A stretch of DNA of 64,000 nucleotides, from contig NZ_NKHL01000103.1 of the NCBI RefSeq assembly GCF_002934685.1, positions 7,762 through 71,761 of the forward strand, given 5' to 3'. The notes under the pieces were generated by a model. The model made no database searches. It was not told the origin of the DNA and saw nothing but the letters and a program-made list of their open reading frames with translations. The position numbers and the translations under genes were made by a program. The DNA is from Pseudomonas bohemica (lineage in GTDB: Bacteria; Pseudomonadota; Gammaproteobacteria; Pseudomonadales; Pseudomonadaceae). Positions 22,995 through 48,659 of this stretch are shown in pieces. How positions within the stretch are numbered: position 1 is the stretch's first letter; every line of letters begins with the position of its first letter.

Positions 22995-23070
22995 TGGCGT
23001 CCCCTAGGGGACTCGAACCCCTGTTACCGCCGTGAAAGGGCGGTGTCCTAGGCCACTAGACGAAGGGGAC
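22995..23070 (-). tRNA. tRNA-Glu (UUC), proximal copy
   Basis: Same 76-base sequence as the gene at 22739, with anticodon UUC and encoded CCA. Together with the neighbouring tRNA-Ala it forms one unit of a tandem duplication. Confidence 0.97.
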
Positions 23071-23156
23071 GTAACCCTTTGTGTACCTGATCGGTGCTGG
23101 TTCCGACTTACGGTACAAACCTCAAAGCAGTGTAGCCAACCTTGAAGCTTCTAAAT

Positions 23157-23232
23157 TGGTGGAGCTAAGCGGGATCGAACCGCTGACCTCCTGCATGCCA
23201 TGCAGGCGCTCTCCCAGCTGAGCTATAGCCCC
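23157..23232 (-). tRNA. tRNA-Ala (GGC), first in the operon
   Basis: Same 76-base sequence as the gene at 22867, with anticodon GGC and encoded CCA. It is the first tRNA after the strong promoter at 23299-23327. Confidence 0.97.
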
Positions 23233-32416: not shown

Positions 32417-32854
32417 TCACTTCTCACTCGGCTTCCAATCATCCGGCACCACCGCAATCACGTCGATTTCCATCAACCATTGCGGCTGGCCGAGACCGGA
32501 GATCACCAGCCCGGTGGAGATCGGGAAGACGCCTTTGAGCCATTTGCCGATTTCCTGATACACCGGCTCGCGGTAGCGAGGGTCGATGATGTAGGTGGTG
32601 GTCTTGACGATGTGGGACAGATCCGAGCCCGCCTCTTCCAGCAGTTGCTTGACGTTCTTCATCGCCTGTTCGGCCTGAGCGCGTGGGTCGCCCAGCCCTA
32701 CGAGATTGCCTTCGAAGTCGGTGCCGATCTGGCCGCGGACGTAGACCGTATTACCCGCGCGCACGGCCTGGCACAGGTCGTTATCCAGCGATTGGTTCGG
32801 GTAGGTTTCCTTGGTGTTGAACATGCGAATGCGGGTGTGGGTGGGCTGTGCCAT
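32417..32854 (-). CDS. RidA/YjgF/YER057c-family deaminase
   Basis: Small enzyme of 145 residues in a family that hydrolyses reactive enamine/imine intermediates or similar labile amine products. It shows NTVYVRGQIGTDFEGNLVG, DPRAQAEQAMKNVKQLLEEAG and a C-terminal ALIEIDVIAVV-like segment (LMEIDVIAVV). It lacks the exact GTGDxxxQ core and the Arg of housekeeping RidA near residue 105 (here ISTGLVISGLG), so it is a divergent subgroup. It is last in a leftward set after TetR, an exporter and a flavin monooxygenase, suggesting it clears a product of the monooxygenase. Confidence 0.88.
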   Translation of the reverse strand: MAQPTHTRIRMFNTKETYPNQSLDNDLCQAVRAGNTVYVRGQIGTDFEGNLVGLGDPRAQAEQAMKNVKQLLEEAGSDLSHIVKTTTYIIDPRYREPVYQEIGKWLKGVFPISTGLVISGLGQPQWLMEIDVIAVVPDDWKPSEK

Positions 32855-32915: not shown

Positions 32916-34238
32916 TCAAGCGGTTACGGGGTTGCCAAGCGTCGGCGCGACCGTGGCGACAGGCTGCTCAGCGTGACGCTGCGAGGCATCGCGGTACTCG
33001 AGGTATTTGCGCTGGGTCGCGATATGGTCGGCCACGTACTTGGCGTCGTGCCAGACACCCCAGATAAACGAGGACCCGCGGCGCGACTGCCACGGCAGGC
33101 CGAGGAAGTAGATCCCCGACTCCGTCGACACCCCACGTTGATGCTGCGGCTTGCCCTTGGCATCGAATGCATCGACTTTCATCCAGCTGTAATCGGTGGC
33201 AAAACCGGTGGCCCAAATGATCGTGGTGATGCCAGCGGCAGCCAGGTCCAGTTCAAGAATTGGGTTGCTCACGCACTCAGGATCAGGGAACACACGACGC
33301 GCTTGCGGTTCGAGTGGCAAGTCCAGACCGTTACGCTCGATATAGGCGTCAGCGGCGTCGAGCACGGCCAGGTAGTTCTCATCGCCACGGGCGAGGTTTT
33401 CGGCCAGATCGGGCTGAAAGCGCACTACGCCGTTGTCGAACGAGCGGGTCACGCCGACGAGCTTCATGCCGCGCTGGGCCAGCTCGCGAAAGTCCACGGT
33501 ACGCCCGCCGTGGGCGCCGCTGACTGCAATTGTGACATGCTCGCGACCTGGCTTCATCGCCGCCTGGTCCCACTCGCCGAGCACCCCCAGCCACCAGCAG
33601 AAATCGCGATTGCGATAGGCGCGCGGCGGACGATCGTGCTGGCCCACCGAGAGGTAGACCTGGCGACCGGCGCGCTGCAGTTCATCGGCGATCTGAGTCC
33701 CGGAAGACCCGGCGCCGACTACCAGCACCGCGCCTGCGGGCAACTGCTGTGGATTGCGATACTGTGCGGAATGAATCTGCGTCAGGTGTTCGTCGCTCGG
33801 CGCGATGGCCGGGATCACCGGGCGCTGGAACGGCCCGGTCGCGACCACCACACGATTGGCCTGGATCACGCCCTCGGAGGTCTCGACCGTAAAACCCGGC
33901 CGCCCGGCATTGCGCTCGACCTTGCGCACCTCCACGCCAGTGCGGATCGGCGCGTTGAACTTGCGGGCGTAGGCCTCGAAATAATCGGCGACCCGCTCTT
34001 TCGGAGCGAAACCGTCCGGGCTCAGATCGTCGAATTCAAGCCCCGGAAAACGATCGTGCCAGGCCGGCCCATTGGCCACCAGCGAATCCCAGCGCCCGGT
34101 GCGCCAGGCCTCGGCAATCCGGCTGCGCTCGAGGACCAGGTGAGCAATGCCCAGGTTGCTCAAATGCTCGCTCATGGCTACGCCAGCTTGACCTGCGCCG
34201 ACCACGAGCGTATCGATTTCTATGTTTGCAGCTGTCAT
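32916..34238 (-). CDS. Flavin-containing monooxygenase-like oxidoreductase (CzcO/YhhW type)
   Basis: Cytoplasmic FAD/NADPH enzyme of 440 residues. The first Rossmann motif is VVGAGQAGVAMSEHL (near residue 10) and the second is VVGAGSSGTQIADEL (near 175), with RWDSLVANGPAWHDRFP and WATGF typical of the group. Such enzymes N- or S-oxygenate amines and sulphides or act as Baeyer-Villiger oxygenases; the substrate here is unknown. ATG 34238 starts the family sequence; the open frame further upstream is not family-like. It lies between a DMT exporter and RidA on the same strand, under the TetR gene. Confidence 0.9.
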   Translation of the reverse strand: MTAANIEIDTLVVGAGQAGVAMSEHLSNLGIAHLVLERSRIAEAWRTGRWDSLVANGPAWHDRFPGLEFDDLSPDGFAPKERVADYFEAYARKFNAPIRTGVEVRKVERNAGRPGFTVETSEGVIQANRVVVATGPFQRPVIPAIAPSDEHLTQIHSAQYRNPQQLPAGAVLVVGAGSSGTQIADELQRAGRQVYLSVGQHDRPPRAYRNRDFCWWLGVLGEWDQAAMKPGREHVTIAVSGAHGGRTVDFRELAQRGMKLVGVTRSFDNGVVRFQPDLAENLARGDENYLAVLDAADAYIERNGLDLPLEPQARRVFPDPECVSNPILELDLAAAGITTIIWATGFATDYSWMKVDAFDAKGKPQHQRGVSTESGIYFLGLPWQSRRGSSFIWGVWHDAKYVADHIATQRKYLEYRDASQRHAEQPVATVAPTLGNPVTA

Positions 34239-34415
34239 ACCTGTGTCCTTCACGAAGGCGGGTGTGGACGCATTCTGTGCAGGATCAGGGGATAGCGAAA
34301 TTATGATTTTTGTCGTCGCAGAGCAGGAAAATGTTAGGGGGTTGGGCGCACTGGGTTGGACCTTAAGCTTGCCCGGCGGCCCAGCCACGCTCAAGCGCTC
34401 CCGTCCCGACAGCCC

Positions 34416-35249
34416 TCACCCCAGACGCAGCACCATGGCGCCGATGGCGATGATGCAGGCCGCGACACTGCGGATGCGCGGCAGATGCTCCTTGAGCACC
34501 AGTGCCGAGATCGCGACGCCGAACAGGATCGACGTCTCTCTCAGCGCGGAGACTACGGCGACCGGCGCCTGTGTCATCGCCCAGAGCGCCAGACCGTAGG
34601 ACGCCGCCGTGCCGACGCCGCCGACGACTCCCAGCCGCCAGTTGCGCGCGACGTAAGTGCGGAACGCCGCTCGACGGTGGGTCAGGGCCCATGCAGCGAG
34701 CGGGATTCCGGTCAGTAGGAATATCCACAGCGTGTAGGCCACAGGCGCGCCGGATCGACGTACGCCCAGACCATCGATCAAGGTATAACCGGCGATCACA
34801 CAGGCGTTGATCAGGGCGAGCAGCACACCCTTTCTCTGGGCCCTCGCGGGCCTGCCTGCCATGCACAGGATGCCGACGCAAATGATGGCAATGCCAATCC
34901 ATGCAAATGTCGACAGGGTTTCCGGGAACAGCATCAAGCTCACCGTCGCAACCAGTAACGGCGCGGTGCCACGCATGATCGGGTAGGTCTGGCTCATGTC
35001 TGCAATCCGATAGGTTGTGGCCACGAGCACGAAATACAGCACCTGGAAAACAACGGACAAGCCCAGAAAGGGCCAACTTTCTTTGGCCGGCAAGTCAAGA
35101 AAAGGGATGACAACCAAGGCCATGGCTGCCGCCACCGAGGTGATCATGCAAGTGGTTAGCAGCTTGTCCCCGCCCCCCTTGACCACGGCGTTCCAGGACG
35201 CATGCAGAACCGCGCCCAGCATGATGATCGCGAACACTTCCAGACTCAT
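34416..35249 (-). CDS. EamA/DMT-family transporter
   Basis: Ten-helix inner-membrane protein of 277 residues with two EamA halves (GAVLHASWNAVVKGG and TYPIMRGTAPLLVATVSLML; then GYTLIDGLGVRRSG and VSALRETSILFGVAISALVLKE). The family exports metabolites and amino-acid-like compounds. I chose ATG 35249; a start ten codons upstream is possible. It is 44 bp after the TetR stop and precedes the monooxygenase by 177 bp. Export of the amine-derived compound handled by this operon is an inference. Confidence 0.9.
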   Translation of the reverse strand: MSLEVFAIIMLGAVLHASWNAVVKGGGDKLLTTCMITSVAAAMALVVIPFLDLPAKESWPFLGLSVVFQVLYFVLVATTYRIADMSQTYPIMRGTAPLLVATVSLMLFPETLSTFAWIGIAIICVGILCMAGRPARAQRKGVLLALINACVIAGYTLIDGLGVRRSGAPVAYTLWIFLLTGIPLAAWALTHRRAAFRTYVARNWRLGVVGGVGTAASYGLALWAMTQAPVAVVSALRETSILFGVAISALVLKEHLPRIRSVAACIIAIGAMVLRLG

Positions 35250-35293
35250 GAGATGCGGTTCCTTACGACGAAAATTCAACGGGCGGGCAACGT

Positions 35294-35899
35294 CTATTGG
35301 TTCAACATCCCGCTACACATCAACCCCAATACGCTGCGCATATGCGCCGCATGAGCCTCACGGTCCGGGACGGCCTCAGTGGCCAGGCGTATGAACGCCA
35401 GATTCGCGTATTGATTGAACAGGGTCGCGGCCACTTCGATGTCCACTGACTCACGGATCTTGCCCAGCTTCTGGAAATGCACCAGCAATGCCTTGGCCTC
35501 TTCGACTACCGCGCCATTCCAGGGCTGAAACGCCTGAGAGAGTTCGCCGGTGAACAGAAATGGCGCCAGCTCACGCCAAAGTGACGCAGGCATGGCTCGC
35601 AGTTGGTAGCGGGTCATCAGGTCTTCGAGTTCGCAGAGGGCGTCGAGGGGGTCGGAGTTGTCGTCCAGATTCGACCTTGCCTCGCGCATGGCCTGTTCGT
35701 CGGGCGCCTTGAGCAGGGCCAGGAGGATTTCCTGCTTGCCGCCGAAATAATTGACCACCGTGGGCGCCGAAACACCTGCCTGATTGGCGATCTGCTCAAG
35801 GGTGGTAGCGCCGAAACCGTTCGCCTTGAACAAGGTCAACGCGGCTTCAGCGATCTCTTGGCGGCGCTGTTCTTTTTGCCTTTCTCTAAGCCCTGTCAT
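35294..35899 (-). CDS. TetR-family regulator
   Basis: Repressor of 201 residues. The helix-turn-helix is in residues 12-55 (RQEIAEAALTLFKANGFGATTLEQIA and GVSAPTVVNYFGGKQEIL). It heads the leftward DMT-monooxygenase-RidA set and is divergent from the aminotransferase. A large palindrome in the shared promoter region (35959-35983) is the expected operator. Its inducer is probably the amine or a product of the pathway. Confidence 0.92.
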   Translation of the reverse strand: MTGLRERQKEQRRQEIAEAALTLFKANGFGATTLEQIANQAGVSAPTVVNYFGGKQEILLALLKAPDEQAMREARSNLDDNSDPLDALCELEDLMTRYQLRAMPASLWRELAPFLFTGELSQAFQPWNGAVVEEAKALLVHFQKLGKIRESVDIEVAATLFNQYANLAFIRLATEAVPDREAHAAHMRSVLGLMCSGMLNQ

Positions 35900-35958
35900 A
35901 TCGCCCTTGGAGCCGGTTTTGGTCGCCCTGCAGGTTACGGAAAAGCCTTTTCATCAAC

Positions 35959-35983
35959 AAATATTTTCTTTACAAAAATATTT
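35959..35983. promoter_or_regulatory. Candidate TetR operator in the divergent promoter
   Basis: AAATATTTT (35959-35967) and AAAATATTT (35975-35983) are exact reverse complements separated by seven bases. They sit in a very AT-rich 40 bp between the divergent TetR and aminotransferase genes, where an autoregulatory operator would be expected. Confidence 0.55.
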
Positions 35984-36082
35984 TTACATGCCAAAAATTA
36001 TCTCACACCGAAGCCCCGGCACGCCCTCGTCCGCTCACAAAATAAACGCAGGTCAAGGGCACCATCACCCTGGAGAAGCACA

Positions 36083-37465
36083 ATGTCCATTGACCTCGAT
36101 CCAAGCCGCACTACCCGTGATTACCAGGCATCCGATGCCGCCCACCACATCCACGCGTTTGTCGATCAAAAGGCGCTGAACGCGGAAGGCCCGCGGGTGA
36201 TGGTCAGAGGTGATCGACTTACGCTGTGGGACAACGACGGCAAGCGTTATCTGGACGGCATGTCGGGGCTGTGGTGCACCAACCTCGGTTACGGGCGCAA
36301 GGATCTGGCCGCGGCCGCCAGTGCGCAGTTGGAGCAACTGCCCTACTACAACATGTTCTTCCACACCACCCACCCGGCCGTGATCGAGCTGTCCGAGCTG
36401 CTGTTCAGCCTGCTGCCCGCCCATTACAGCCACGCGATCTACACCAACTCCGGCTCCGAGGCCAACGAGGTGCTGATCCGCACCGTGCGCAAGTTCTGGC
36501 AGGTGATGGGCAAGCCCGAGAAGAAGGTGATGATCGGCCGCTGGAACGGCTATCACGGCTCGACCCTGGCCGCGACGGCATTGGGCGGGATGAGGTTCAT
36601 GCACGAGATGGGGGGCACGATTCCCGACGTCGCGCACATCGACGAGCCTTACTGGTTCGCTCACGAAGGCGATCTGAGCCCTGAAGAATTCGGTCTGCGC
36701 GCGGCTCGGCAACTGGAAGACAAGATTGTGGAACTGGGGCCCGACAACGTCGCAGCGTTCGTTGCTGAACCCTTCCAGGGCGCAGGCGGGATGATCATTC
36801 CTCCGCAAACCTATTGGCCGGAAATCCAGCGCATCTGCCGCAAGTACGACGTGCTGTTGTGCGCCGACGAAGTGATCGGCGGGTTCGGGCGCACAGGCGA
36901 ATGGTTTGCCCATCAGGTGTTCGGCTTCGAACCGGACACGCTGTCCATTGCCAAGGGCCTGACCTCGGGCTACATCCCCATGGGCGGGCTGATCCTGTCG
37001 CGACGCATGGCCGAAGCACTGGTGGACAAAGGCGGCGTGTTCGCCCACGGCCTGACTTACTCCGGGCATCCGGTGGCCGCTGCTGTCGCCATCGCCAACC
37101 TCAAGGCATTGCGCGACGAAGGGGTAGTCCATCAGGTGAAAACCGATACCGGGCCGTACCTGCAGAACTGCCTGCGCGAGGTGTTCGGCAAGCACCCGCT
37201 GGTGGGTGAGGTCCAAGGCGTGGGGCTGGTGGCCGCGCTGCAGTTCGCCGAGGACAAGGCCACGCGCAAACGCTTCGCCGACGAAAACGACATGGCCTGG
37301 CGTTGCCGCACCATCGGATTCGAGGAAGGCATCATCATTCGCTCGACACTGGGCCGCATGATCATGGCCCCGGCGCTGATCGCCACCCGCGCCGAACTGG
37401 ACGAGCTGGTCGACAAGACGCGTATCGCGGTGGACCGTACGGCGCGGGAATACGGGCGCCTGTAA
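36083..37465 (+). CDS. Class III (omega) aminotransferase, SpuC/aspartate aminotransferase-family
   Basis: PLP enzyme of 460 residues moving an amino group from an amine or omega-amino acid to pyruvate or a keto acid. It shows YLDGMSGLWCTNLGYGRKDL, YTNSGSEANEVLIRTVRKFW, NGYHGSTLAATALGG, FVAEPFQGAGGMIIPP, CADEVIGGFGRTGEWF and the Schiff-base Lys in SIAKGLTSGYIPMGG. The pattern is close to polyamine:pyruvate aminotransferases such as SpuC. ATG 36083 has GGAGA upstream; the open frame before it overlaps the TetR gene and is not coding. The neighbouring oxidative genes support amine catabolism. Confidence 0.93.
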   Translation: MSIDLDPSRTTRDYQASDAAHHIHAFVDQKALNAEGPRVMVRGDRLTLWDNDGKRYLDGMSGLWCTNLGYGRKDLAAAASAQLEQLPYYNMFFHTTHPAVIELSELLFSLLPAHYSHAIYTNSGSEANEVLIRTVRKFWQVMGKPEKKVMIGRWNGYHGSTLAATALGGMRFMHEMGGTIPDVAHIDEPYWFAHEGDLSPEEFGLRAARQLEDKIVELGPDNVAAFVAEPFQGAGGMIIPPQTYWPEIQRICRKYDVLLCADEVIGGFGRTGEWFAHQVFGFEPDTLSIAKGLTSGYIPMGGLILSRRMAEALVDKGGVFAHGLTYSGHPVAAAVAIANLKALRDEGVVHQVKTDTGPYLQNCLREVFGKHPLVGEVQGVGLVAALQFAEDKATRKRFADENDMAWRCRTIGFEEGIIIRSTLGRMIMAPALIATRAELDELVDKTRIAVDRTAREYGRL

Positions 37466-37685
37466 CGCGAGTGGCTTTCTCAGGCGCTCGCTCCAGAGCT
37501 CGCTCAAGGGTTCTCTCAAGCAATCTCTGAGAAGTTTTTCCGTAATTAGGCTCCACAAAAAACCTCGTTTCGCCCACGGCTGCGCGTCTACAGAATGCAG
37601 TCATGTCCCATCCCCGCCCAGGCAGCCTCAGATAAGCGGCCCGGGCGCCGGATGGCGGGTCAGGACGAAACAGGACGAACACACC

Positions 37686-38360
37686 ATGACGTTTTCAATC
37701 GTCGGCCGTTGCGCCGAAACAGGACAACTGGGCATCGCCATCAGCTCATCGAGCATTGCCGTCGGCGCGCGCTGCCCCTGGCTGCGTCCGGGTGTAGGCG
37801 CGGTGGCCACCCAGAACATCACCCTGCCCGCCCTCGGTCCGCAGGTGCTCGACCAGATGGAAGGCGGCCTATCCCCGGCCCAGGCGCTGGATCAGGCGTT
37901 GACCAGCAACGGCTACAGCCAGTTTCGCCAGTTGACTGCCATTGACCATCTAGGCCAAACCGCACACTTCAGCGGCAGCGAGACATTGGGCACGCACAAC
38001 GCACTGGCCGGTGAGCAATGCGTCGGCGCGGGCAACATGTTGGCCGATCGCGCGGTGATCGACACGCTGGTGCGCACCTTCGAAAACAGCGGCGGGCAAC
38101 TGGCAGATCGGCTTATCGCGGCGATGCAGGCGGCGGTGGCGGCTGGTGGCGAGGCTGGCCCTGTGCATTCAGCAGCGCTGGTGGTGGTAGGCGAACTGAC
38201 CTGGCCCATCGTCGACCTGCGGGTGGATTGGGCCGATGAAGACCCCATCGGCAGACTGGAGCAATTGTGGGCCGATTACCGCCCGCAGATGCAGGACTAC
38301 ATCACCCGCGCCCTCGACCCGACCAAGGCCCCCAGCTATGGTGTGCCGGGTGATGAATAG
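37686..38360 (+). CDS. DUF1028-family protein (Ntn-hydrolase-like)
   Basis: Protein of 224 residues starting MTFSIVGRCAETGQLGIAIS, then SSSIAVGARCPW and GVGAVATQN, GAGNMLAD; this is the DUF1028 pattern, whose fold resembles Ntn hydrolases. The biochemical role is not established. It lies 221 bp after the aminotransferase and 30 bp before an ArgE-like deacylase on the same strand, so a shared function in hydrolysing an acylated or amidated compound is plausible. The 37466-37685 gap shows no element I can name. Confidence 0.88.
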   Translation: MTFSIVGRCAETGQLGIAISSSSIAVGARCPWLRPGVGAVATQNITLPALGPQVLDQMEGGLSPAQALDQALTSNGYSQFRQLTAIDHLGQTAHFSGSETLGTHNALAGEQCVGAGNMLADRAVIDTLVRTFENSGGQLADRLIAAMQAAVAAGGEAGPVHSAALVVVGELTWPIVDLRVDWADEDPIGRLEQLWADYRPQMQDYITRALDPTKAPSYGVPGDE

Positions 38361-38390: not shown

Positions 38391-39542
38391 ATGAGCAGTA
38401 GTCGGGATATGTTGGCCGCGTTGGTGGGTTTCGACACCACCAGCCGCGAATCGAATTTGCAACTGATCGAGTTCGTTCGGGACTGTCTGGCCCAGCTGGA
38501 TGTGCCCTGTGAGCTGATCTACAACGCGCAGCGCAGCAAGGCCAACCTGTTCGCGACCCTTGGCCCCGCGGATGTTCCGGGCATCGTGCTGTCCGGCCAT
38601 ACCGATGTGGTGCCGGTGGACGGGCAACCCTGGACCGTGGCGCCGTTCGAGCTGAGCGAAAAGGACGGCAAGCTGTTCGGGCGCGGCACGGCGGACATGA
38701 AAGGCTACATCGCCTGTGTGTTGGCGGCCGTGCCCCAACTGCTGGCTGCGCCATTACGCATGCCGGTACACATCGCCCTGTCTTATGACGAAGAAGTCGG
38801 CTGTCTGGGCGTGCGCTCGCTGTTGGCCGAACTCGAGCGGCGGCCGGTCAAGCCACTGTTGTGCATCATCGGCGAGCCCACCGAACTAAAGCCGGTGCTG
38901 GGTCATAAAGGCAAACTGGCGATGCGCTGCGATGTGCGTGGCGCGGCCTGTCATTCGGCCTATGCGCCCCAGGGCGTGAATGCCATCGAGTACGCGGCCG
39001 AATTGATTGGCGAACTGGGACGCATTGGCTCGACCCTGCGGGCGCCACAACTGCATGACGCGCGCTTCGATCCGCCGTTCACCACGGTGCAGACCGGCGT
39101 GATCAGTGGCGGCAAGGCGCTGAACATCGTCCCTGCCGATTGCCGATTCGATTTTGAAGTCCGCGCGCTGCCTGCCCATGACCCACTTGAAGTCGCTCAG
39201 CAATTGCAACAGTACGCCAAGGAACAGGTGCTGCCTCGCATGCAGGCGGTCAATCCGGACAGTGACATTCGTTTCTCCGAGCTGTCGGCCTATCCGGGGC
39301 TGGCCACCGATGCGAAAAGTCAGGCCGCGCAGTTGATTGCTCAGTTTTGCGGGTCGGAGGCGTTCACCACCGTAGCGTTCGGCACCGAGGGTGGGCTGTT
39401 CGATGCCATCGGTATTCCTACCGTGGTCTGCGGGCCGGGAAGCATGGATCAGGGACACAAGCCGGATGAGTTTGTCAGTGTCGAGCAGATGAATGCGTGT
39501 GATGCCATGTTGCGGCGCATGATTGAAGCATTGCAGAGCTGA
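38391..39542 (+). CDS. argE: M20 deacylase, acetylornithine deacetylase-like
   Basis: Zinc metallopeptidase-fold enzyme of 383 residues annotated by similarity to ArgE. Metal and catalytic residues are present: SGHTDVVPVDGQPW (His, Asp), FGRGTADMKG (Asp), and YDEEVGCLG (Glu-Glu). A dimerisation domain (GHKGKLAMRCDVRGAACHSA) follows. The housekeeping acetylornithine step in Pseudomonas uses ArgJ, and this copy sits with DUF1028 and amine-metabolism genes, so it may cleave another N-acyl amino acid or amine. A degenerate REP element follows. Confidence 0.85.
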   Translation: MSSSRDMLAALVGFDTTSRESNLQLIEFVRDCLAQLDVPCELIYNAQRSKANLFATLGPADVPGIVLSGHTDVVPVDGQPWTVAPFELSEKDGKLFGRGTADMKGYIACVLAAVPQLLAAPLRMPVHIALSYDEEVGCLGVRSLLAELERRPVKPLLCIIGEPTELKPVLGHKGKLAMRCDVRGAACHSAYAPQGVNAIEYAAELIGELGRIGSTLRAPQLHDARFDPPFTTVQTGVISGGKALNIVPADCRFDFEVRALPAHDPLEVAQQLQQYAKEQVLPRMQAVNPDSDIRFSELSAYPGLATDAKSQAAQLIAQFCGSEAFTTVAFGTEGGLFDAIGIPTVVCGPGSMDQGHKPDEFVSVEQMNACDAMLRRMIEALQS

Positions 39543-39724: not shown

Positions 39725-40630
39725 TCATTTCGGCGCCAGCTCTTCCCGACAATGATCAACGAACAATTGCGCAGGCTTGGTCAATTGCGAGCGGCGCAGC
39801 CAGGCGGCTGACAGGCCGGAGCCGGTGACCTGTTCGGCCAGCGGCACGCACACCACTTTCTGCCCGTCGTAGGTGTATTCGGATTTCGGCCGGGTCACCA
39901 GGATAGAGAAGCCGAAACCACGCCCTACCATGCCCCGGACCATCTCGATCGACGGCGAGCTGAACTGGATATGCGGAGTCAGCCCGCGCTCTTCGAAAAT
40001 GCTCACGAAGTAGGTTCGGCTCGGCTGCACGTCCAGCAACACCATCGGTTCGAGCACCAGATCGTTGAGCGAAACCTTGGCCTGATTGGCGAAACGATGC
40101 CCCTCCGGCAGCAGTGCATAGGGCTGTTGCGGCGCCATCAAGGGTGCGGTGTCGATGGTGCTGTCCAAGTCGTGCTCATACAGAATCGCCAGATCGATGC
40201 TGCCGGAAGTCAGGGCCTGCACCAGCTCCTGCTGCTCACCGTCCCGGATGCGGATTTCCACCCCCGGCCAGCGATCACGAAAGCCGGCAATCAGCCGCGG
40301 TAGATACAGCGGCGCGACGGTTTCGAAACAACCAATGTCGATTTGCCCGGCCACCACGTCGTTGTCGGCCAGGGCATTCTGCTCAAATTCATGGGCCACG
40401 CGCAGCAGTTCCTGAGCCTTGCGATAGAACCGTGCACCACTGGGGGTCAGCGAGACGCCCTGGGCGTGGTGGCGGATGAACAGCTGCACGGCGAAGCTTT
40501 CTTCCAGATGCTTGATCGCGGTCGAGACCGAAGGCTGGGCGATGTACAACTTGCGCGACGCCTCGGCAACGCTGCCGCACTCCACCGTGGTGACGAAATA
40601 CTTGAGTTGTCGCAGGTTGTAGGCTGCCAT
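39725..40630 (-). CDS. LysR-family regulator of the aldehyde dehydrogenase operon
   Basis: LTTR of 301 residues with N-terminal helix-turn-helix LRQLKYFVTTVECGSVAEASRKL and IAQPSVSTAIKHLEESF. It is divergent from the aldehyde dehydrogenase gene with 272 bp between starts, which contain a GGTGC/GCACC repeat and a motif shared with the ABC-transporter leader. It therefore probably controls the catabolic operon and perhaps the importer. The inducer is unknown. Confidence 0.92.
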   Translation of the reverse strand: MAAYNLRQLKYFVTTVECGSVAEASRKLYIAQPSVSTAIKHLEESFAVQLFIRHHAQGVSLTPSGARFYRKAQELLRVAHEFEQNALADNDVVAGQIDIGCFETVAPLYLPRLIAGFRDRWPGVEIRIRDGEQQELVQALTSGSIDLAILYEHDLDSTIDTAPLMAPQQPYALLPEGHRFANQAKVSLNDLVLEPMVLLDVQPSRTYFVSIFEERGLTPHIQFSSPSIEMVRGMVGRGFGFSILVTRPKSEYTYDGQKVVCVPLAEQVTGSGLSAAWLRRSQLTKPAQLFVDHCREELAPK

Positions 40631-40750
40631 TGTTACCTCGAAAGGGGTGAACCATAACCTCGGATCCTGCGCGCTATTCTGCGGCGTTCACAGCCTTCGG
40701 GAAACAAGCAAATTCCTCCCCATTGAAACTAAAAAAACTGAGCTCAAAGC

Positions 40751-40779
40751 GGTGCATCCAAGCACCATGAAGGTGCATC
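40751..40779. promoter_or_regulatory. Candidate LysR binding site
   Basis: GGTGC-ATCCAA-GCACC (40751-40766) is a perfect inverted repeat; a third half-site GGTGC begins at 40772, giving GGTGCATC twice, 21 bp apart. This sort of repeat cluster is typical of LysR regulator sites in a divergent promoter. Confidence 0.45.
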
Positions 40780-40808
40780 TCAGGCGAGCTTTTTTATCGA
40801 TAGCAACG

Positions 40809-40827
40809 ACATTTTTAATAATTTCCT
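40809..40827. promoter_or_regulatory. Motif shared with the ABC-importer leader, copy 1
   Basis: ACATTTTTAATAATTTCCT here and ACATATTTACTAATTTTCCT at 45854-45873 match at 17 of 19 positions with one inserted T. Both are followed by C-rich stretches, ATCGGC, and then CCCACAGAGGC (40875-40885 and 45904-45914). This suggests a common regulator or common origin. Confidence 0.5.
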
Positions 40828-40902
40828 GCCCTCCCCACATCCCCCACTATCGGCAGCACTGATCGTGAACATGGCCCACAGAGGCTACCGAAGGAGTGTG
40901 CA

Positions 40903-42393
40903 GTGACGGATCTGAAAAGCTGGCAACGTCTGGCTGAAAATCAACGTTTGATCGACACCGCCTTGATCGCGGGCAAGCCCCGACAGGCACAGAGTGGTGA
41001 GACCTTCGCGGTGATCAACCCGGCCACCAACGCCCTGCTGGCCAATGTTGCCGCGTGCTCGGATGCCGATGTCGATGCCGCCGTGCGCGCCGCGCGCAAC
41101 AGTTTCACAAGCGGCCCGTGGGCGCGCATGCAACCCCGTGAACGCAAGGCGATTCTGCTGCGTCTGTCGGCATTGATCCTGGAGCATCGCGAAGAATTGG
41201 CGCTGCTCGACTCGCTGAGCATGGGCAAGCCGGTGATGGACGCCTACAGCATCGACGTACCCGGCGCCGCCCAGGTGTTCGCCTGGTACGCCGAAAGCCT
41301 CGACAAACTGTACGATCAGGTCGCCCCCACCGGCCCCGGTACGCTGGCGACCATCACCCGCGTGCCACTGGGCGTAATTGCAGCGGTGGTGCCCTGGAAC
41401 TTCCCGCTGGACATGGCGGCCTGGAAACTCGCCCCTGCCCTCGCCGCCGGCAATAGCGTGATCCTCAAACCTGCTGAACAGTCGCCGTTCTCGGCGCTGC
41501 GTCTAGCGGAGTTGGCGCTGGAGGCCGGCGTGCCGGGAGGTGTGTTCAACGTGATCACAGGCCTCGGCGAACAGGCAGGTCGCGCGCTGGGCCTGCACCC
41601 GGATGTCGATGCACTGGCATTCACCGGCTCGACTCAGGTAGGCAAATTTTTCATGCAATACGCCGCGCAGTCGAACCTCAAGCAGGTGTGGCTGGAGTGC
41701 GGCGGCAAGAGCCCGAATCTGGTGTTCGCCGATTGCCAGGACCTGGACCTGGCTGCCGAGAAAGCCGCGTTCGGCATCTTTTTCAATCAGGGCGAAGTGT
41801 GCTCGGCTAACTCGCGGTTGCTGGTAGAGCGCTCGATTCATGATGAGTTCGTCGAGCGTTTGATCGAAAAAGCCAGGCAGTGGCAGCCTGGCGACCCACT
41901 GAATCCGGCCAGCAAGACGGGCGCAATCGTCGATGCGAGCCAAGCGGCGCGAGTGATGGACTACATCGGCGAAGCCAGCCGCAGCGGCGCACGTCCGGTC
42001 GCAGGCGGCGAGCGGGTGGTGATCAACGGCTCGGACAACTTCATTCAACCCACCCTGTTCACTCACGTTACGCCGGACATGCGTTTGTCCCGGGAAGAGG
42101 TGTTTGGCCCGGTGCTGGCGATTACTGCGTTCGACGATGAGGATCAGGCGGTGCAAATGGCCAACGATCACATTTATGGGCTGGCGGCCTCGGTGTGGAG
42201 CGACGACCTCAACCGCGCGCATCGTGTGGCCGCTCGTTTGAATGCCGGTACGGTCTCGGTGAACACGGTGGATGCGCTGGACGTCTGCGTGCCGTTCGGC
42301 GGCGGCAAGCAATCCGGGTTCGGGCGCGATCTGTCGCTGCATTCATTCGACAAATACACCCAGCTCAAGACCACCTGGTTCCAGTTGCGCTGA
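40903..42393 (+). CDS. Aldehyde dehydrogenase, PuuC/KauB-like
   Basis: NAD(P)-dependent enzyme of 496 residues oxidising an amine-derived aldehyde to its acid. It shows VVPWNFPLDMAAWKLAPALA, AFTGSTQVGK, the general-base Glu in LECGGKSPN, and the catalytic Cys in NQGEVCSANSRL. Start is GTG with AAGGAG six bases upstream. The sequence resembles gamma-glutamyl-gamma-aminobutyraldehyde and other omega-aminoaldehyde dehydrogenases. It is first in an operon with a permease and a GMC oxidoreductase, fitting oxidation of an alcohol or amine via its aldehyde. Confidence 0.93.
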   Translation: MTDLKSWQRLAENQRLIDTALIAGKPRQAQSGETFAVINPATNALLANVAACSDADVDAAVRAARNSFTSGPWARMQPRERKAILLRLSALILEHREELALLDSLSMGKPVMDAYSIDVPGAAQVFAWYAESLDKLYDQVAPTGPGTLATITRVPLGVIAAVVPWNFPLDMAAWKLAPALAAGNSVILKPAEQSPFSALRLAELALEAGVPGGVFNVITGLGEQAGRALGLHPDVDALAFTGSTQVGKFFMQYAAQSNLKQVWLECGGKSPNLVFADCQDLDLAAEKAAFGIFFNQGEVCSANSRLLVERSIHDEFVERLIEKARQWQPGDPLNPASKTGAIVDASQAARVMDYIGEASRSGARPVAGGERVVINGSDNFIQPTLFTHVTPDMRLSREEVFGPVLAITAFDDEDQAVQMANDHIYGLAASVWSDDLNRAHRVAARLNAGTVSVNTVDALDVCVPFGGGKQSGFGRDLSLHSFDKYTQLKTTWFQLR

Positions 42394-42555
42394 GGCGTTG
42401 GCATGGAACTTGAGCATGCCCTTGAAACGTGAACCTGAAACGTGAACCTGCAGCACGCCCAGGCGGCAGTGTCGAGGTTGGGTCAGCCACGATTTTCCCC
42501 GCAGAAAAATTCATGCCTCGGCATTCTTGCCAGGGCGCTACGTGAGTAATCAAGC

Positions 42556-43968
42556 ATGAATAACAACGACTCCAGAGCGGCAACCCTCGAGCTGAGCACC
42601 ATCCAGCCGATCGCCCTCGACCAGCGCCATGGCCGCGCTCGCGACCTGTTCACCATCTGGTTCGGCTCCAACATCATGTTGCTGACCGTGGTCACCGGCG
42701 CCCTGGCGGTGACAGTGTTCAAGCTGCCGTTCATGAGCGCAATGATCGCACTGATCCTCGGTAACCTGATCGGCGGGATCTTCATGGCCCTGCATTCGGC
42801 GCAGGGCCCGCAACTGGGCGTGCCGCAGATGGTCCAGACCCGGGGGCAGTTCGGCTCCTACGGCTCGCTGCTGGTGGTCGCGCTGGTGGTGGTCATGTAC
42901 CTGGGCTTCTTCGCCTCCAATCTGGTGCTCGGCGGGCAGTCGCTGCACAGCCAATATCCGCTGTTCAGCACCAACCAGGGCATCGTGCTGGTGGGGCTGA
43001 TCAGTGTGGTGGCGACGGTGTTCGGCTATCGCCTGATCCACGCCTACACCCGCGTGATGTCGTACCTGTCCGGTGCGATTCTGCTGCTGTGCTTCGTCTG
43101 GATCGTTGCCGTGCATGGCCTGCCCGCGGACTTTTTGCAGCGTAACGAAACCAACCTCGCCGGCTTTCTGGGAACGCTGTCGATCGCTGCGCTGTGGCAA
43201 CTGGCGTATGCGCCCTATGTCTCCGACTACTCGCGCTACATGCCGGCGGATACCGGCGGCAAGGCGGCGTTCTGGTCAAGCTACTGGGGTTGCTGCCTGG
43301 GTTCGATCCTGCCGATGGCGCTGGGGGTGATCGTCGGCCTGAGTGTCGAAGGCGACATCATTGCCGGGCTGATCGAAATGACCGGCAGCATCGCCACCCT
43401 GGTGGTCGCCGTGTTCTCCATCGGCATCGCCGCCACCAACGCGATGAACCTGTATTGCGGCACCCTTTCGGCGATCACAGTCGGCCAGACGCTGGTGCCG
43501 AAATGGTCAGCCGGCGCCCTCTCCCGCGCGATCACCGCGCTGGTGCTGTTCTCGATTTCGCTGGCGCTGGCATTGCTGGGGCAGGACGACTTCATGGCCA
43601 ACTACACCAACTTCATTCTGTTGCTGTTGTACGTGCTGGTGCCGTGGACTGCGATCAACCTGGTGGACTATTACCTGGTCGCCCACGGCAGCTACGACGT
43701 AGCCTCGTTTTTCCGTCGCGACGGCGGGATCTATGGCTATTTCAACTGGACAGCGGTGGGCTGCTACGTGCTGGGCATTCTGGTGCAGATCCCGTTCATG
43801 GCCACCGAGCTGTACACCGGCGTCATCGCCAAAGCCATGGGCGGCGCGGACGTGTCGTGGATCGTCGGCCTGGTGGTGATCTCGCCGGTTTACTACCTGG
43901 CCAGCCGTCGCCGCAACCGCATCCGCGGCCACAAGCAAGCGCTGGGCACTCTGGGGAGAAACGCATGA
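42556..43968 (+). CDS. NCS1-family permease (cytosine/purine/allantoin type)
   Basis: Twelve-helix inner-membrane symporter of 470 residues. It shows RARDLFTIWFGSNIMLLT (helix 1), the family stretch GPQLGVPQMVQTRGQFGSYGS, APYVSDYSRYMP and the GIAATNAMNLYCGTLSA segment. NCS1 members take up nucleobases, hydantoins, pyridoxine or related nitrogen compounds with Na+ or H+. It follows the aldehyde dehydrogenase by 162 bp and overlaps the GMC gene start by four bases, so it probably imports the substrate of that operon. Confidence 0.92.
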   Translation: MNNNDSRAATLELSTIQPIALDQRHGRARDLFTIWFGSNIMLLTVVTGALAVTVFKLPFMSAMIALILGNLIGGIFMALHSAQGPQLGVPQMVQTRGQFGSYGSLLVVALVVVMYLGFFASNLVLGGQSLHSQYPLFSTNQGIVLVGLISVVATVFGYRLIHAYTRVMSYLSGAILLLCFVWIVAVHGLPADFLQRNETNLAGFLGTLSIAALWQLAYAPYVSDYSRYMPADTGGKAAFWSSYWGCCLGSILPMALGVIVGLSVEGDIIAGLIEMTGSIATLVVAVFSIGIAATNAMNLYCGTLSAITVGQTLVPKWSAGALSRAITALVLFSISLALALLGQDDFMANYTNFILLLLYVLVPWTAINLVDYYLVAHGSYDVASFFRRDGGIYGYFNWTAVGCYVLGILVQIPFMATELYTGVIAKAMGGADVSWIVGLVVISPVYYLASRRRNRIRGHKQALGTLGRNA

Positions 43969-45635
43969 AAACCGATTACGACTACATCATCGTCGGTGCC
44001 GGCTCTTCAGGCTGCGTGCTGGCGAATCGTCTGAGCGCCGACCCTGCTGTCAGCGTCTGCCTGATCGAAGCCGGCAGTCATGATAACAGCCTGCGCATCC
44101 AGACGCCCGCCGGGACCATCACGCTGTACAAAAGCAGGAAGTACAGCTGGAATTTCTTCTCGGCGCCGCAGAAGAACCTCAACGGCCGCTCGCTGCACAC
44201 CCCGCGTGGCAAGGCGCTGGGCGGCTCCAGCTCGATGAACAGCATGATCTACATTCGCGGCCACGCCAGCGACTACGACCGCTGGGCGCAGGCCGGCTGC
44301 GCTGGCTGGGACTGGAACAGCGTGCTGCCGTACTTCAAGAAGTCCGAGAACAACCGGCTTGGCCAGGACCCGCGTCTGCATGGCACGACCGGTGAGCTGA
44401 ACGTCGAAGCGGCGCGCGATCCCAATCCGGTGTCGAAGCTGTTCGTCAAAGCCGCACAGCGCATCGGCATCCGCACCAACGATGATTTCAACGGCGAGCA
44501 GCTCGAGGGCTGTGGGATCTACAACTTGACGCAAAAGGATGCCAAACGACTGTCGAGTTATCGCGCCTTTGTCGCGCCCGTTCTGGACCGCCCCAATCTC
44601 ACCGTGATCACCGATTGTTCAGTGCAATCGCTGATCCTGGAAGAACGTGTGGCCAAGGGCGTCAGAGTGGTTTCGGACGGTCAAGCGATGGCCTTGAGTG
44701 CGCGGCACGAGGTGATTCTTTCGGCGGGGTCATTGGGCAGCCCGAGCCTGCTGCTGGCGTCGGGTATCGGTCCTGAGCAGGAGCTGAAAAACGCCGGCAT
44801 CAAGGTCGAGCATGACCTGCCCGGCGTTGGCAAGAATCTGCAGGACCACCTCGACGGGCTGATCACCATTCGCTCGAAAAGCCCGTTGACCCTGGGCTTC
44901 TCACTGGGCTCGTTGCCGAGCATCGTGCTGTCGCCTTTGCGTTATCTGTTCGGCAAAAAGGGCTGGCTGACCACCAACTATGTCGAGGCTGGCGGCTTTG
45001 CGCGTACACCGTTGGCAGATGCGCTGCCCGACGTGCAGTTTCATTTCGTGCCGGGCTACCGCAGCCATCGCGGACGTCTGTTCGAATGGGGTCACGGCTA
45101 TGCGGTGCACACCTGCGTGCTGCGGCCCAAAAGCATCGGCGAGCTCCGTCTGGATCGCGACGGTAAGCCTGTCATCGACTTCAATTTCCTCTCCGACCCG
45201 CAAGACGCCAAGGTGCTGGTGGAGGGCCTGAAACTGGCGCGCAGGATTCTCGCCGACCAGCAGTTCGATGGCATTCGTGGCAAGGAAATGCTCCCCGGCG
45301 CCGAGGTGCAGACCGACGAACAACTGATGGCCTACGTGCGCGAATACGCCGCCACGGTGTTCCACCCGGTGGGCACCTGCAAGATGGGCGTCGATGCCAT
45401 GAGCGTGGTCGGGGCTGATCTGACGGTGCATGGCATACAGGGCCTGCGTGTGGTCGACGCCTCGATCATGCCGACCCTGATCAGCGGCAACACCAACGCG
45501 CCGTGCATCATGATTGGCGAGAAGGCGGCTGACATGATTTTGCGGGCTCATGCATTCACCCCTGGGAGCGAGCGTGCTCGCGAACAGGCCGGTCAACTCG
45601 CTGCACCTTCAGCACCTGAAAGTCAGCTTTCGTGA
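43965..45635 (+). CDS. GMC-family FAD oxidoreductase (choline dehydrogenase-like)
   Basis: Flavoprotein of 556 residues oxidising an alcohol to its aldehyde. It shows YIIVGAGSSGCVLANRLS (FAD), GGSSSMNSMIYIRGHASDYD, and the catalytic His in VFHPVGTCKMG with the NTNAPCIMIGEKAADMIL close. ATG 43965 overlaps the permease stop (ATGA). Normal family sequence ends near codon 532; the last 20-odd residues (PGSERAREQAGQ... ESQLS) are encoded by a REP element that has run into the reading frame and moved the stop. Activity is probably kept. Choline itself is unlikely since betT/betB-type partners are missing. Confidence 0.93.
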   Translation: MKTDYDYIIVGAGSSGCVLANRLSADPAVSVCLIEAGSHDNSLRIQTPAGTITLYKSRKYSWNFFSAPQKNLNGRSLHTPRGKALGGSSSMNSMIYIRGHASDYDRWAQAGCAGWDWNSVLPYFKKSENNRLGQDPRLHGTTGELNVEAARDPNPVSKLFVKAAQRIGIRTNDDFNGEQLEGCGIYNLTQKDAKRLSSYRAFVAPVLDRPNLTVITDCSVQSLILEERVAKGVRVVSDGQAMALSARHEVILSAGSLGSPSLLLASGIGPEQELKNAGIKVEHDLPGVGKNLQDHLDGLITIRSKSPLTLGFSLGSLPSIVLSPLRYLFGKKGWLTTNYVEAGGFARTPLADALPDVQFHFVPGYRSHRGRLFEWGHGYAVHTCVLRPKSIGELRLDRDGKPVIDFNFLSDPQDAKVLVEGLKLARRILADQQFDGIRGKEMLPGAEVQTDEQLMAYVREYAATVFHPVGTCKMGVDAMSVVGADLTVHGIQGLRVVDASIMPTLISGNTNAPCIMIGEKAADMILRAHAFTPGSERAREQAGQLAAPSAPESQLS

Positions 45636-45653
45636 GCACCCTCACTCCCACAG
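45562..45653. repeat. REP doublet overlapping the 3' end of the GMC gene
   Basis: CTGGGAGCGAGCGTGCTCGC (from 45562) and TTCGTGAGCACCCTCACTCC (from 45629) are the two arms of a GTGGGAG REP pair. The left arm and centre lie inside the GMC coding sequence, and the stop codon falls in the right arm. Confidence 0.8.
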
Positions 45654-45745
45654 ATGAATCTGCCTCACCGCCGGTGGTGGATTCGGGATCGCAGCCGCCA
45701 GCAAGCCGGACTGCTCCAGGGTAAGTGCAACACCGCTGACCTATG

Positions 45746-45784
45746 AAACGCCGCTTTTCTGCACCGGGAAGCGGCGTTTTTATT
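45746..45784 (+). terminator. Terminator after the GMC gene
   Basis: AAACGCCGCTT, a 12-base loop, AAGCGGCGTTTTTATT makes an 11-bp stem with a T-run. Confidence 0.85.
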
Positions 45785-45853
45785 GTCCGCGCCCCAGCTT
45801 CGAACACGTTTTAGCCCCCGTTTCCCACCCCAGTTTTTTCCTCATCAGGGACC

Positions 45854-45914
45854 ACATATTTACTAATTTTCCTATCCCCCGACATCGGCCAACATCACTT
45901 CGCCCCACAGAGGC
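45854..45914. promoter_or_regulatory. Motif shared with the aldehyde dehydrogenase leader, copy 2
   Basis: ACATATTTACTAATTTTCCT, then a C-run, ACATCGGCC and CCCACAGAGGC, matches the block at 40809-40885 upstream of the aldehyde dehydrogenase. The start of the solute-binding protein lies about 100 bp further on. The rest of the 45636-46015 interval holds only the REP arm and the terminator. Confidence 0.5.
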
Positions 45915-46015: not shown

Positions 46016-47002
46016 ATGATCAAGTCTTTCGTATCGCGCTGCGTGCGTCCGCTGGCCCTGACTGCAATCGCTGCCGGCGTTGCCAGCGGGGCCCAGGCCG
46101 GCACGCTGTCCATCGGTCACACCACCTGGGTGGGCTACGGCACCCTGTATCTGGCCAAAGACCTGGGCTACTTCAAGGACCAGGGCCTGACCGTCGAGTT
46201 GCCGACCATCGAAGAAGCCTCGATGTACATGGCCGCCCAAGCCTCGGGCAAGTTGTCCGGTTCGGCCTCGACCCTCGATGAAATCCTCAAATACCGCCCG
46301 CAATTCTGCTTCAAGGCCGTCGCGGCGCTGGATGAAAGTTATGGCGGCGACGGCGTGCTGGTGGGCAAGGACGTCAACAGCCTGCAGGACCTCAAAGGCA
46401 AATCCGTGGCCGTCAACGAGGGGTCGGTCTCGCAGTTCTGGCTCAACTATCTGCTGAAGAACGCCGGCATGAAGATGAGCGACCTGACCATCCAGAACAT
46501 GACCGCTGACGACGCCGCCACCGCCTTCATCGCCGGCCGCGTGCCGGCTGCCGTGACCTGGGAACCGCACCTGACAACCGTGCGCAACAAGCAGCAAGGC
46601 AAGGTGCTGGTCGACAGCAGCTCGACACCCGGTGTGATCGTCGATGTGGTGGCCCTGAGCTGCGATGTAGTCGACAAGCAACAGGCTGACGTCAAGGCAC
46701 TGGTCGCAGGTCTCTACAAGGCCGTGCAGTACACCCAGGATCATCCGAAGGAAGCCTATGCGATCATGGCCAAGGGCGTGGGTGGTTATCTCGCTGACCC
46801 GGCCGAGCTGGAATCCGCGGCCAAGGGCGTGCGTTTCTACGACCAGGCCATGAGCGAAAAACTGCTAGGCAGCAACGGCAGCACCGGCGATGCGGCGGCC
46901 GTGATCAAGCTGGCCAACGAAACTGCCAGCGAGTTGCAGGGCAAGCCATACAACGTGAGCTACAGCGACCTGATCGACAACCGCTTCATCAGCCCGAAAT
47001 AA
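46016..47002 (+). CDS. ABC transporter substrate-binding protein, SsuA/TauA/NMT1-like
   Basis: Periplasmic binding protein of 328 residues with a Sec signal peptide (MIKSFVSRCVRPLALTAIAA, cleavage after GAQA). The mature protein begins GTLSIGHTTWVGYGTLYLAK, the classic nitrate/sulfonate/taurine/thiamine-precursor binding fold. It starts an operon with a permease and ATPase, spaced 14 bp. GGGAG lies six bases before the ATG; the longer open frame is not used. The ligand is unknown but likely a small organic nitrogen or sulphur compound. Confidence 0.92.
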   Translation: MIKSFVSRCVRPLALTAIAAGVASGAQAGTLSIGHTTWVGYGTLYLAKDLGYFKDQGLTVELPTIEEASMYMAAQASGKLSGSASTLDEILKYRPQFCFKAVAALDESYGGDGVLVGKDVNSLQDLKGKSVAVNEGSVSQFWLNYLLKNAGMKMSDLTIQNMTADDAATAFIAGRVPAAVTWEPHLTTVRNKQQGKVLVDSSSTPGVIVDVVALSCDVVDKQQADVKALVAGLYKAVQYTQDHPKEAYAIMAKGVGGYLADPAELESAAKGVRFYDQAMSEKLLGSNGSTGDAAAVIKLANETASELQGKPYNVSYSDLIDNRFISPK

Positions 47003-47016: not shown

Positions 47017-47820
47017 ATGTCCAAGCGCAATTCGTGGCTGAACCGCTGCCTCACGCCCAAGACCAGTCTGCCGGCGCAGGTGATCTGGAGCGCCAGCGGC
47101 CTGGCGTGGGTGTTGTTGATCGGTCTGTGGGCCTCGCTCTCTTATGGCGGCGTGGTGCCGGCGATGTTTTTGCCGACGCCGGGTGCGGTGTTCGATGCCG
47201 CAATGCGCCTGGCCCGTGACGGCACCCTCGGCCCGCATGTGTGGGCCAGTGTGGAAGTGGTGATGGTCGGCTTCGTGATCTCTTCGGTGGTCGCGGTGCC
47301 GATCGGCTTGATGATGGGCAGCTTCCGGGTAGTCCAGGCATTCCTCGAGCCGCTGGTCAACTTCATCCGTTATTTGCCGGTCACCTCGTTCGTGCCGCTG
47401 TTCATCCTGTGGATCGGCATCGGTCTGGAGCAGCGAGTGTCGATCATCATCTTCGGCGTGTTCTTCCAGCAACTGGTAATGATCGCCGACGTGTCCAAGG
47501 GCATTTCCAAGGACCTGATCAATGCCTCGTACACCCTGGGCTCCACGCGCCGCGACGCGGTGCTGCACGTCATCGCGCCAGCCTCGTTGCCCGGCGTGCT
47601 CGACACCCTGCGCGTGACCATGGGCTGGGCCTGGACCTATCTGGTGGTGGCCGAGTTGGTCGCGGCCTCCAGCGGCCTGGGCTACCTGAGTCTGAAGGCC
47701 ATGCGTGGCTTTCAGGTCGATGTGATTTTTCTGGCGATCGCCGTCATCGGCCTGCTGGGCCTGATCACCGATCAACTTTTCAGATTCCTCCGCTTGAAGG
47801 TGGCCGCATGGGCTCAGTAA
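47017..47820 (+). CDS. ABC transporter permease, SsuC/TauC-like
   Basis: Inner-membrane subunit of 267 residues with about six helices and the BPD_transp_1 domain. The coupling EAA loop is DVSKGISKDLINASYTLGST, followed by VLHVIAPASLPGVLDTLRVT and GYLSLKAMRGFQVD. It is cotranscribed between the binding protein and the ATPase; its stop overlaps the ATPase start by 13 bases. Confidence 0.93.
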   Translation: MSKRNSWLNRCLTPKTSLPAQVIWSASGLAWVLLIGLWASLSYGGVVPAMFLPTPGAVFDAAMRLARDGTLGPHVWASVEVVMVGFVISSVVAVPIGLMMGSFRVVQAFLEPLVNFIRYLPVTSFVPLFILWIGIGLEQRVSIIIFGVFFQQLVMIADVSKGISKDLINASYTLGSTRRDAVLHVIAPASLPGVLDTLRVTMGWAWTYLVVAELVAASSGLGYLSLKAMRGFQVDVIFLAIAVIGLLGLITDQLFRFLRLKVAAWAQ

Positions 47821-48659
47821 ACGCAAGCTCCCCAACCCCGCTACGGACAGCTCCGGCGATGACGCCTGTCGCTGCGACAGCCACACCGCGTCTGCGCGTC
47901 GACAACGTCACCCTGCAATACAAGACTCCGTCGGGTGGCACGTTCACCGCGCTGGACAAGGTTTCTTTCGAAGTGCCCGACCAGCAATTCGCGGTGCTGG
48001 TCGGCCCTTCGGGTTGCGGCAAGTCCAGCCTGCTGTACCTCACCGCGGGCCTGGCCGAGCCAACCTCGGGCGATATCTACGTTGGCGGTCAGCAAGTCGA
48101 TGGGCCCGGTGCCGATCGCGGCATGGTATTTCAGGGCTACACGCTGTTCCCCTGGCTGACCGTGCGCAAGAACATCGAATTCGGTCTCAAGCGTCGTGGC
48201 ATGCCCGCCGCCGAGCGCAAGGAAATCGTCGAGTTCTACCTTAACGAAGTCGGCCTGCGACGCTTTGCCGACAATTACTCCAAGCAGCTCTCCGGCGGGA
48301 TGATGCAGCGCGTGGCGATTGCCCGGGCGCTGGCCAACGACCCGCAGATTCTGCTGATGGACGAGCCCTTCGGCGCACTGGACAGCCAGACCCGTTTGCA
48401 GATGCAGCAGCTGCTGCTCAAGGTCTGGGAACACAGCAAGAAAACCGTGCTGTTCGTGACCCACGACATCGACGAGGCGATCCTGCTGGGCGACCGCATC
48501 TTCGTCATGGGCGCACGCCCCGGGCGGATCAAGGAAGTGCTCGACGTGCCCATCGGCCGCCCGCGCAACCTGGACATGGTCATGGACCCGGAATTCATTC
48601 GCATGAAGCGCAATATCTTTCATCAGCTGCACGACGGGCCGGACGATCACGCCGACTGA
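47808..48659 (+). CDS. ABC transporter ATPase, SsuB/TauB-like
   Basis: Cytoplasmic ATP-binding subunit of 283 residues: Walker A GPSGCGKSS, Q-loop FQGYTLFPWLTV, signature LSGGMMQRVAIARAL, Walker B ILLMDEPFGALD and H-loop VTHDIDEA. ATG 47808 overlaps the permease end. A short N-terminal extension of about 28 residues precedes the domain. It powers the importer of the preceding two genes. Intact. Confidence 0.95.
   Translation: MGSVNASSPTPLRTAPAMTPVAATATPRLRVDNVTLQYKTPSGGTFTALDKVSFEVPDQQFAVLVGPSGCGKSSLLYLTAGLAEPTSGDIYVGGQQVDGPGADRGMVFQGYTLFPWLTVRKNIEFGLKRRGMPAAERKEIVEFYLNEVGLRRFADNYSKQLSGGMMQRVAIARALANDPQILLMDEPFGALDSQTRLQMQQLLLKVWEHSKKTVLFVTHDIDEAILLGDRIFVMGARPGRIKEVLDVPIGRPRNLDMVMDPEFIRMKRNIFHQLHDGPDDHAD

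Follow-up and report, generated by a model that had tools for sequence, protein, structure and literature searches.

Two leaders in one region of the Pseudomonas bohemica genome, one before an aldehyde dehydrogenase gene and the other before the operon of an NMT1-type ATP-binding cassette (ABC) importer, share an AT-rich block, which raises the question of whether a single regulator acts on both. They lie within a 64,000 nt stretch of contig NZ_NKHL01000103.1 (positions 7,762–71,761, forward strand; hereafter the window), in which a gene for a LysR-type protein is divergent from the dehydrogenase gene. A first, sequence-only reading had proposed that this LysR protein controls both operons. 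Sequence comparisons with related genomes indicate that both leaders very probably carry an operator-promoter of the type used by HinK, the LysR-type regulator of histamine catabolism. The element would be the operator of a regulator already known; its limits are corrected here, and its predicted regulon grows.

The AT-rich blocks ACATTTTTAATAATTTCCT (40809) and ACATATTTACTAATTTTCCT (45854) agree at 17 of 19 aligned positions with one gap, as originally noted. Commonness of the motif throughout the genome had been named as a finding that would speak against a shared regulator; the core ACATWTTTAMTAATTTYC was found without mismatches only at these two leaders in the 6.49-Mb genome. With three mismatches it occurs at four further places; seven places turned up for a reversed control pattern. 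When 57 genomes were searched with the DNA of each leader, the importer leader by itself found the region preceding the dehydrogenase gene of another genome (G027) as well.

The extent of the motif had to be redrawn. The hexamer ATCGGC, described earlier as a common box, starts 40 nt past the block start in the first leader (40849–40854) and 30 nt past it in the second (45884–45889), and was rejected as part of the site because it is out of register. The box that is conserved in relatives is CACTAT (40845–40850) or CAACAT (45890–45895), each 17 nt past the core. The element reaches further upstream than first described, and excludes both ATCGGC and the trailing 11-mer CCCACAGAGGC. It has a rigid 76 bp layout: a T-tract, 13–16 nt, ACATwTTTAmTAATTTtCC, 17 nt, and CANNAT as the −10 box. 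In the collected sites, the constant upstream part is CT-GCCAG-T-tract, 13–16 nt before the core. A profile of the element was trained on 80 sites (effective number 32). Its best score on the reversed sequence of related loci, −6.0, served as the null maximum, and −12 was the threshold for a site. Five predicted sites were located in the window, all with identical spacing:

45824–45899, forward strand: HinK-type operator-promoter before the NMT1 ABC importer (core 45854–45872, −35 45867–45872, −10 CAACAT 45890–45895; profile score 87.1)
40779–40854, forward strand: HinK-type operator-promoter before hinD (core 40809–40827, −35 40822–40827, −10 CACTAT 40845–40850; profile score 83.3)
34268–34343, reverse strand: HinK-type site before hinF (core 34295–34313, −10 CAGAAT 34272–34277; profile score 17.8)
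40672–40747, reverse strand: HinK-type site before hinK, autoregulation (core 40699–40717, −10 CAGAAT 40676–40681; profile score 12.9)
37525–37600, forward strand: weak HinK-type site before hinH-hinG (−10 CAGAAT 37591–37596; profile score −7.3)

Four profile columns that played no part in selecting the sites are nevertheless conserved (A at −22, T at −12, A at −3 and T at +31). The profile contains T-N11-A, as T at −15 with A at −3 and again as T at −12 with A at 0, although this is a loose motif and so weak evidence. The site overlaps a sigma70-type −35 region with the −10 box at 17 bp, and CANNAT set 17 bp from TTTTCC is compatible with a weak sigma70 promoter; the predicted starts are near 40857 for the hinD leader and 45902 for the importer leader. 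Two-site LysR-type promoters have in common with the element a T-N11-A upstream half, a second block over the −35 region and a divergent regulator gene; the window element differs in its unusually long conserved stretch and the fixed 17 nt spacer to the CANNAT −10 box.

The proposed regulator of the element is the LysR-type protein itself. It scored 560 bits against PDB chain 3fzv_A and 559 bits against 6m5f_A, there named only 'Probable transcriptional regulator', which we take to be HinK. Its own predicted structure was poor (mean predicted local distance difference test score, pLDDT, 39.4). It is 83–84% identical to the LysR proteins of eight loci of a related group (g30), and in four of these eight the gene order beside the LysR gene (aldehyde dehydrogenase, APC permease, aminotransferase, PotD) is that given for P. 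aeruginosa PAO1 in PMC8231116. HinF, HinL, HinH, HinG, HinC, HinD and HinK are described as a histamine catabolism set (PMC8231116, PMC6467879), and the flavin monooxygenase, RidA-like protein, DUF1028 protein, M20 enzyme, aminotransferase, dehydrogenase and LysR-type regulator predicted in the window correspond to this same hin set. Gene order and enzyme class would make the DUF1028 protein HinH and the M20 enzyme HinG. Gene content and synteny together identify the LysR-type protein as the putative HinK. The relevant genes are:

39725–40630, reverse strand: hinK, LysR-type regulator (Pfam HTH_1 and LysR_substrate)
40903–42393, forward strand: hinD, aldehyde dehydrogenase (Pfam Aldedh), divergent from hinK
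42556–43968, forward strand: NCS1-family permease (Pfam Transp_cyt_pur), 163 nt after hinD
43965–45635, forward strand: GMC oxidoreductase resembling choline dehydrogenase (594.8 bits; cut-off 605), overlapping the NCS1 gene
46016–47002, forward strand: substrate-binding protein, NMT1/THI5-like (Pfam NMT1)
47017–47820, forward strand: ABC permease (Pfam BPD_transp_1)
47808–48659, forward strand: ABC ATPase (Pfam ABC_tran)
32916–34238, reverse strand: hinF, flavin monooxygenase (76% to the hinF-like protein of locus L126; Pfam Pyr_redox_3, FMO-like)
32417–32854, reverse strand: hinL, RidA-like (Pfam Ribonuc_L-PSP)
36083–37465, forward strand: hinC, class III aminotransferase (Pfam Aminotran_3)
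37686–38360, forward strand: hinH, DUF1028 protein (Pfam DUF1028; amidase according to hin naming)
38391–39542, forward strand: hinG, M20 amidohydrolase of the acetylornithine-deacetylase type

HinK is reported to control hinDAC, hinFLHG and hinK, to recognise a conserved motif in the promoters of hinD and hinF, where it binds, and to have imidazole-4-acetate rather than histamine as its ligand (PMC8231116); its box is given only in outline, as the LysR-type transcriptional regulator (LTTR) box T-N11-A (PMC10912698). As expected for a HinK regulon, the conserved site precedes both hinD and hinF in the window. The window shares with the PAO1 regulon (hinDAC-PA0222, hinFLHG, hinK) the LysR gene divergent from hinD, together with hinF, hinL, hinH, hinG and hinC, and its sites before hinD, hinF and hinK agree with the HinK action reported there. 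Unlike PAO1, the predicted hinD transcript of the window carries the NCS1 and GMC genes (no site was found by the profile in the 163 nt gap between hinD and the NCS1 permease gene), the NMT1 ABC operon has its own site, and hinK has hinF, hinC and hinH as neighbours. Neither the APC permease HinA nor the PA0222-like protein of PAO1 was found in the window. The histamine pathway described for P. putida U (hinABCD, hinFLHG, hinIJ, hinK) has the same HinC, HinD, HinF, HinL, HinH and HinG, and differs in its transporter genes and in having extra regulators.

Element and regulator occur together across the genus. A strict pattern, designed after part of the 398 congeneric genomes had been seen, matched 142 of them, and two matches were seen with the reversed control. 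The LysR protein had a match at E < 1e-60 in 279 of the 398; 24 weak ones were set aside, leaving 255 orthologs (E < 1e-105). An ortholog is present in 139 of the 142 pattern-positive genomes versus 116 of the 256 pattern-negative ones. Among the three pattern-positive genomes without it, two share one identical, unrelated-looking match and the third is a 73%-complete assembly with an importer-type site. Of the 398 genomes, 88 gave a match to the importer's binding protein; every one of these has the LysR ortholog, and 81 have the strict pattern. At five or fewer mismatches, the element was present in 29 of 30 LysR loci examined (the exception is L094). Among 20 loci of the wider family, it accompanied every LysR protein of at least 79% identity (17/17) and none of those at 51–66% (0/3).

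The position of the sites is also regular. In the best 80 of 307 confirmed loci around the LysR gene, 188 sites scored above −12, and for 186 of them a gene of the reference set follows 20–420 nt downstream; the reversed sequence gave one site. By gene, a site above this threshold precedes the substrate-binding protein in 18/18 cases, the NCS1b permease in 55/56 and the dehydrogenase in 19/22. Dispersed genes each bear their own copy, such as an amino-acid permease (G210, G296) or a dehydrogenase on another contig (G224), and in G015 and G032 the copy stands before a monooxygenase operon with the LysR gene at the operon's far end. The hinF site was seen in 10 of 12 other genomes examined, including 8/8 of group g30, where hinF is distant from the LysR gene; the remaining two (G210, G296) had no convincing hinF site. 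Predicted sites and ortholog co-occurrence thus support a single LysR regulon that would include both leaders. Both operons of the original proposal would belong to it, but the regulon would be larger than claimed, with four clear sites and a weak fifth in the window.

Several observations weigh against this interpretation or limit it. The sub-block TTTNNTAATTT by itself is unremarkable, with 10 genome places compared with 16 for its control. The core and −10 columns of the profile served to collect its training sites, the test loci include strains that also supplied training sites, and 21 of the 117 test sites scoring above 20 match a training site exactly. The strict pattern is missing from 116 of the 255 genomes with the LysR ortholog, in part because variant sites escape it. 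The genomes are related and the counts are not independent, so that the Fisher values (3e-31 and 1e-20) are overstated. Two of the 186 gene assignments are to a generic, low-identity ABC ATPase, and two sites could be paired with none of the listed genes. In the 80 loci, sites are less frequent before the monooxygenase gene hinF (54/76), the LysR gene (16/80) and the DUF1028 gene hinH (15/78). The hinH site of the window scores below the null maximum, although its counterparts in relatives reach 5.0, and no HinK-type site was found before hinC in the window (best upstream profile score −36.8).

Could another regulator of the pathway bind the element instead? P. putida U requires three, HinB, HinJ and HinK (PMC8231116), so that counterparts of HinB or HinJ come into question, as does the second LysR-type protein encoded at 49763; in one genome (G025) a different LysR-like gene adjoins the site. 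However, the element co-occurs with the HinK ortholog and hinK itself has a site, and proteins like the second LysR were found in no more than 11 of the 80 loci (no search was made for HinB or HinJ). Such a regulator is an improbable alternative to HinK. Resemblance of the leaders through recent duplication or by chance, with no shared regulation, is more improbable still: intergenic copies can duplicate and the short AT block, taken by itself, occurs often, but the divergent versions before hinF, hinK and hinH retain the spacing, and across genera the sites are kept in front of genes that are not homologous.

By its proposed layout, a HinK-type operator-promoter would have a T-tract half-site (T-N11-A) near −65 from the presumed start, and the ACATwTTTAmTAATTT block, which runs from roughly −48 to −30 and overlaps the −35 region, followed by the 17 bp spacer and the weak −10 box CANNAT. 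With a weak −10 box and a block over the −35 region, transcription should depend on an activator. By analogy, HinK bound to imidazole-4-acetate would activate hinD-NCS1-GMC, the NMT1 ABC importer, hinF-hinL, hinH-hinG and hinK, and histamine, imidazole-4-acetate or a near relative would be taken up and converted to aspartate. What the sequences themselves show is the element with its geometry and conservation, the genes that it accompanies and its joint occurrence with HinK. The ligand, the binding and the pathway are here carried over from published work on P. aeruginosa and P. putida U. HinK binding at all five sites in the window, including the ABC promoter, is inferred, as is what the ABC and NCS1 transporters carry and what the GMC enzyme acts on.

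The NMT1-type ABC importer, the NCS1 permease and the GMC oxidoreductase are apparently new to the predicted HinK regulon. No report of NMT1 ABC, NCS1 or GMC genes under HinK was found in the open-access literature, nor anything relevant on DUF1028 with LysR, a LysR motif with NCS1, imidazoleacetate transporters or 6M5F. Among six papers retrieved for HinK with NCS1 or ABC transporters, the term NCS1 is absent from all, whereas 'ABC transporter' occurs in four, which were not read for it. In three family loci (L239, L240, L247), the dehydrogenase, aminotransferase, ABC importer and GMC genes are consecutive behind one HinK-type site. In a sample of 30 genomes picked for a LysR protein of 87–91% identity, hinFLHG lies beside the LysR gene in all 30 and an NCS1b permease gene preceded by the element is present in 29. 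A HinD ortholog (75–77%) occurs in nine of the 30, the other 21 having only relatives of at most 54%. The absence of a HinD ortholog from 20 of the 29 NCS1b genomes suggests that NCS1b may import imidazole-4-acetate itself. None of the loci of these 20 has hinC, which was searched for at the locus only. A caution is that a paralog could replace HinD in the 20 genomes; HinE can substitute for HinD in P. putida (PMC6467879).

Tentatively, and with somewhat more doubt than confidence, HinK can be seen as basically a regulator of imidazole-4-acetate scavenging, which interchangeable entry modules would have joined by gaining the same 76 bp element. These modules would be the NMT1 ABC importer, NCS1 permeases, the GMC enzyme and a Rieske oxygenase paired with a class III alcohol dehydrogenase, the last two in two lineages. 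Many species, having import and hinFLHG only, would then use imidazole-4-acetate released by others, not histamine. The GMC enzyme might oxidise imidazole-ethanol. The predicted sites assign a GMC oxidoreductase and two types of orphan transporter to a named catabolic regulon. The long, specific operator model is usable for annotating HinK targets across Pseudomonas, and who takes up imidazole-4-acetate becomes a simple question of growth or binding.

A Rieske oxygenase gene is preceded by a HinK-type element in L120 (8346–10756), L167 and L173 (scores of 59–61 in the latter two), and in L120 it is followed by a class III alcohol dehydrogenase gene. The two enzymes might serve methylimidazole-acetate demethylation and formaldehyde removal.

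The 11-mer CCCACAGAGGC does occur downstream in both leaders, as the sequence-only reading had it, but at different offsets from the −10 box, 24 nt in the first and 8 nt in the second. Five of its eight genome copies are at the end of a palindrome, CGTGAGCAAGCTCAC, which is presumably a repetitive extragenic palindromic (REP) repeat. With one mismatch it is found at three places in the window, which is not above expectation (24 of 100 shuffles reach three), and it is absent downstream of the hinF, hinH and hinK sites there. In favour of the earlier view, close relatives keep it in part, without any change in 5 of 17 distinct importer leaders and in 1 of 19 dehydrogenase leaders. It was rejected as a component of the site, since its spacing differs and it sits at repeat ends, and is a local leader feature outside the site. 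A leader RNA element shared by both transcripts, such as a riboswitch, might be read from CCCACAGAGGC lying past the presumed start in both, where small hairpins seem possible by eye, but the conserved part is upstream of that start, CCCACAGAGGC varies in position and is weakly kept, and a riboswitch or other known RNA element was rejected as neither leader had a match in Rfam model searches, which leaves this explanation very unlikely.

A small hairpin appears possible by eye at 40872–40888 of the hinD leader (TAGCC-loop-GGCTA, in several relatives); it lies just upstream of the ribosome site and contains the shared 11-mer. A third copy of the 11-mer outside repeats is found in L006 (about 1501–1511, reverse strand), in the leader of a transporter-like open frame.

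Between a TetR-type gene (35294–35899, reverse strand) and hinC (36083, forward strand) lies an A/T-rich imperfect palindrome, AAATATTTTcTTTACAAAAATATTT (35947–35990), which is retained in most of the close relatives listed and is perhaps a TetR operator governing hinC instead of HinK. An EamA-type transporter gene (34416–35279, reverse strand) adjoins the TetR gene and is inserted between hinF and hinC. Elsewhere in the window are a ROSE-type RNA thermometer (20176–20241, reverse strand) and four tRNA genes (22742–23232, reverse strand).

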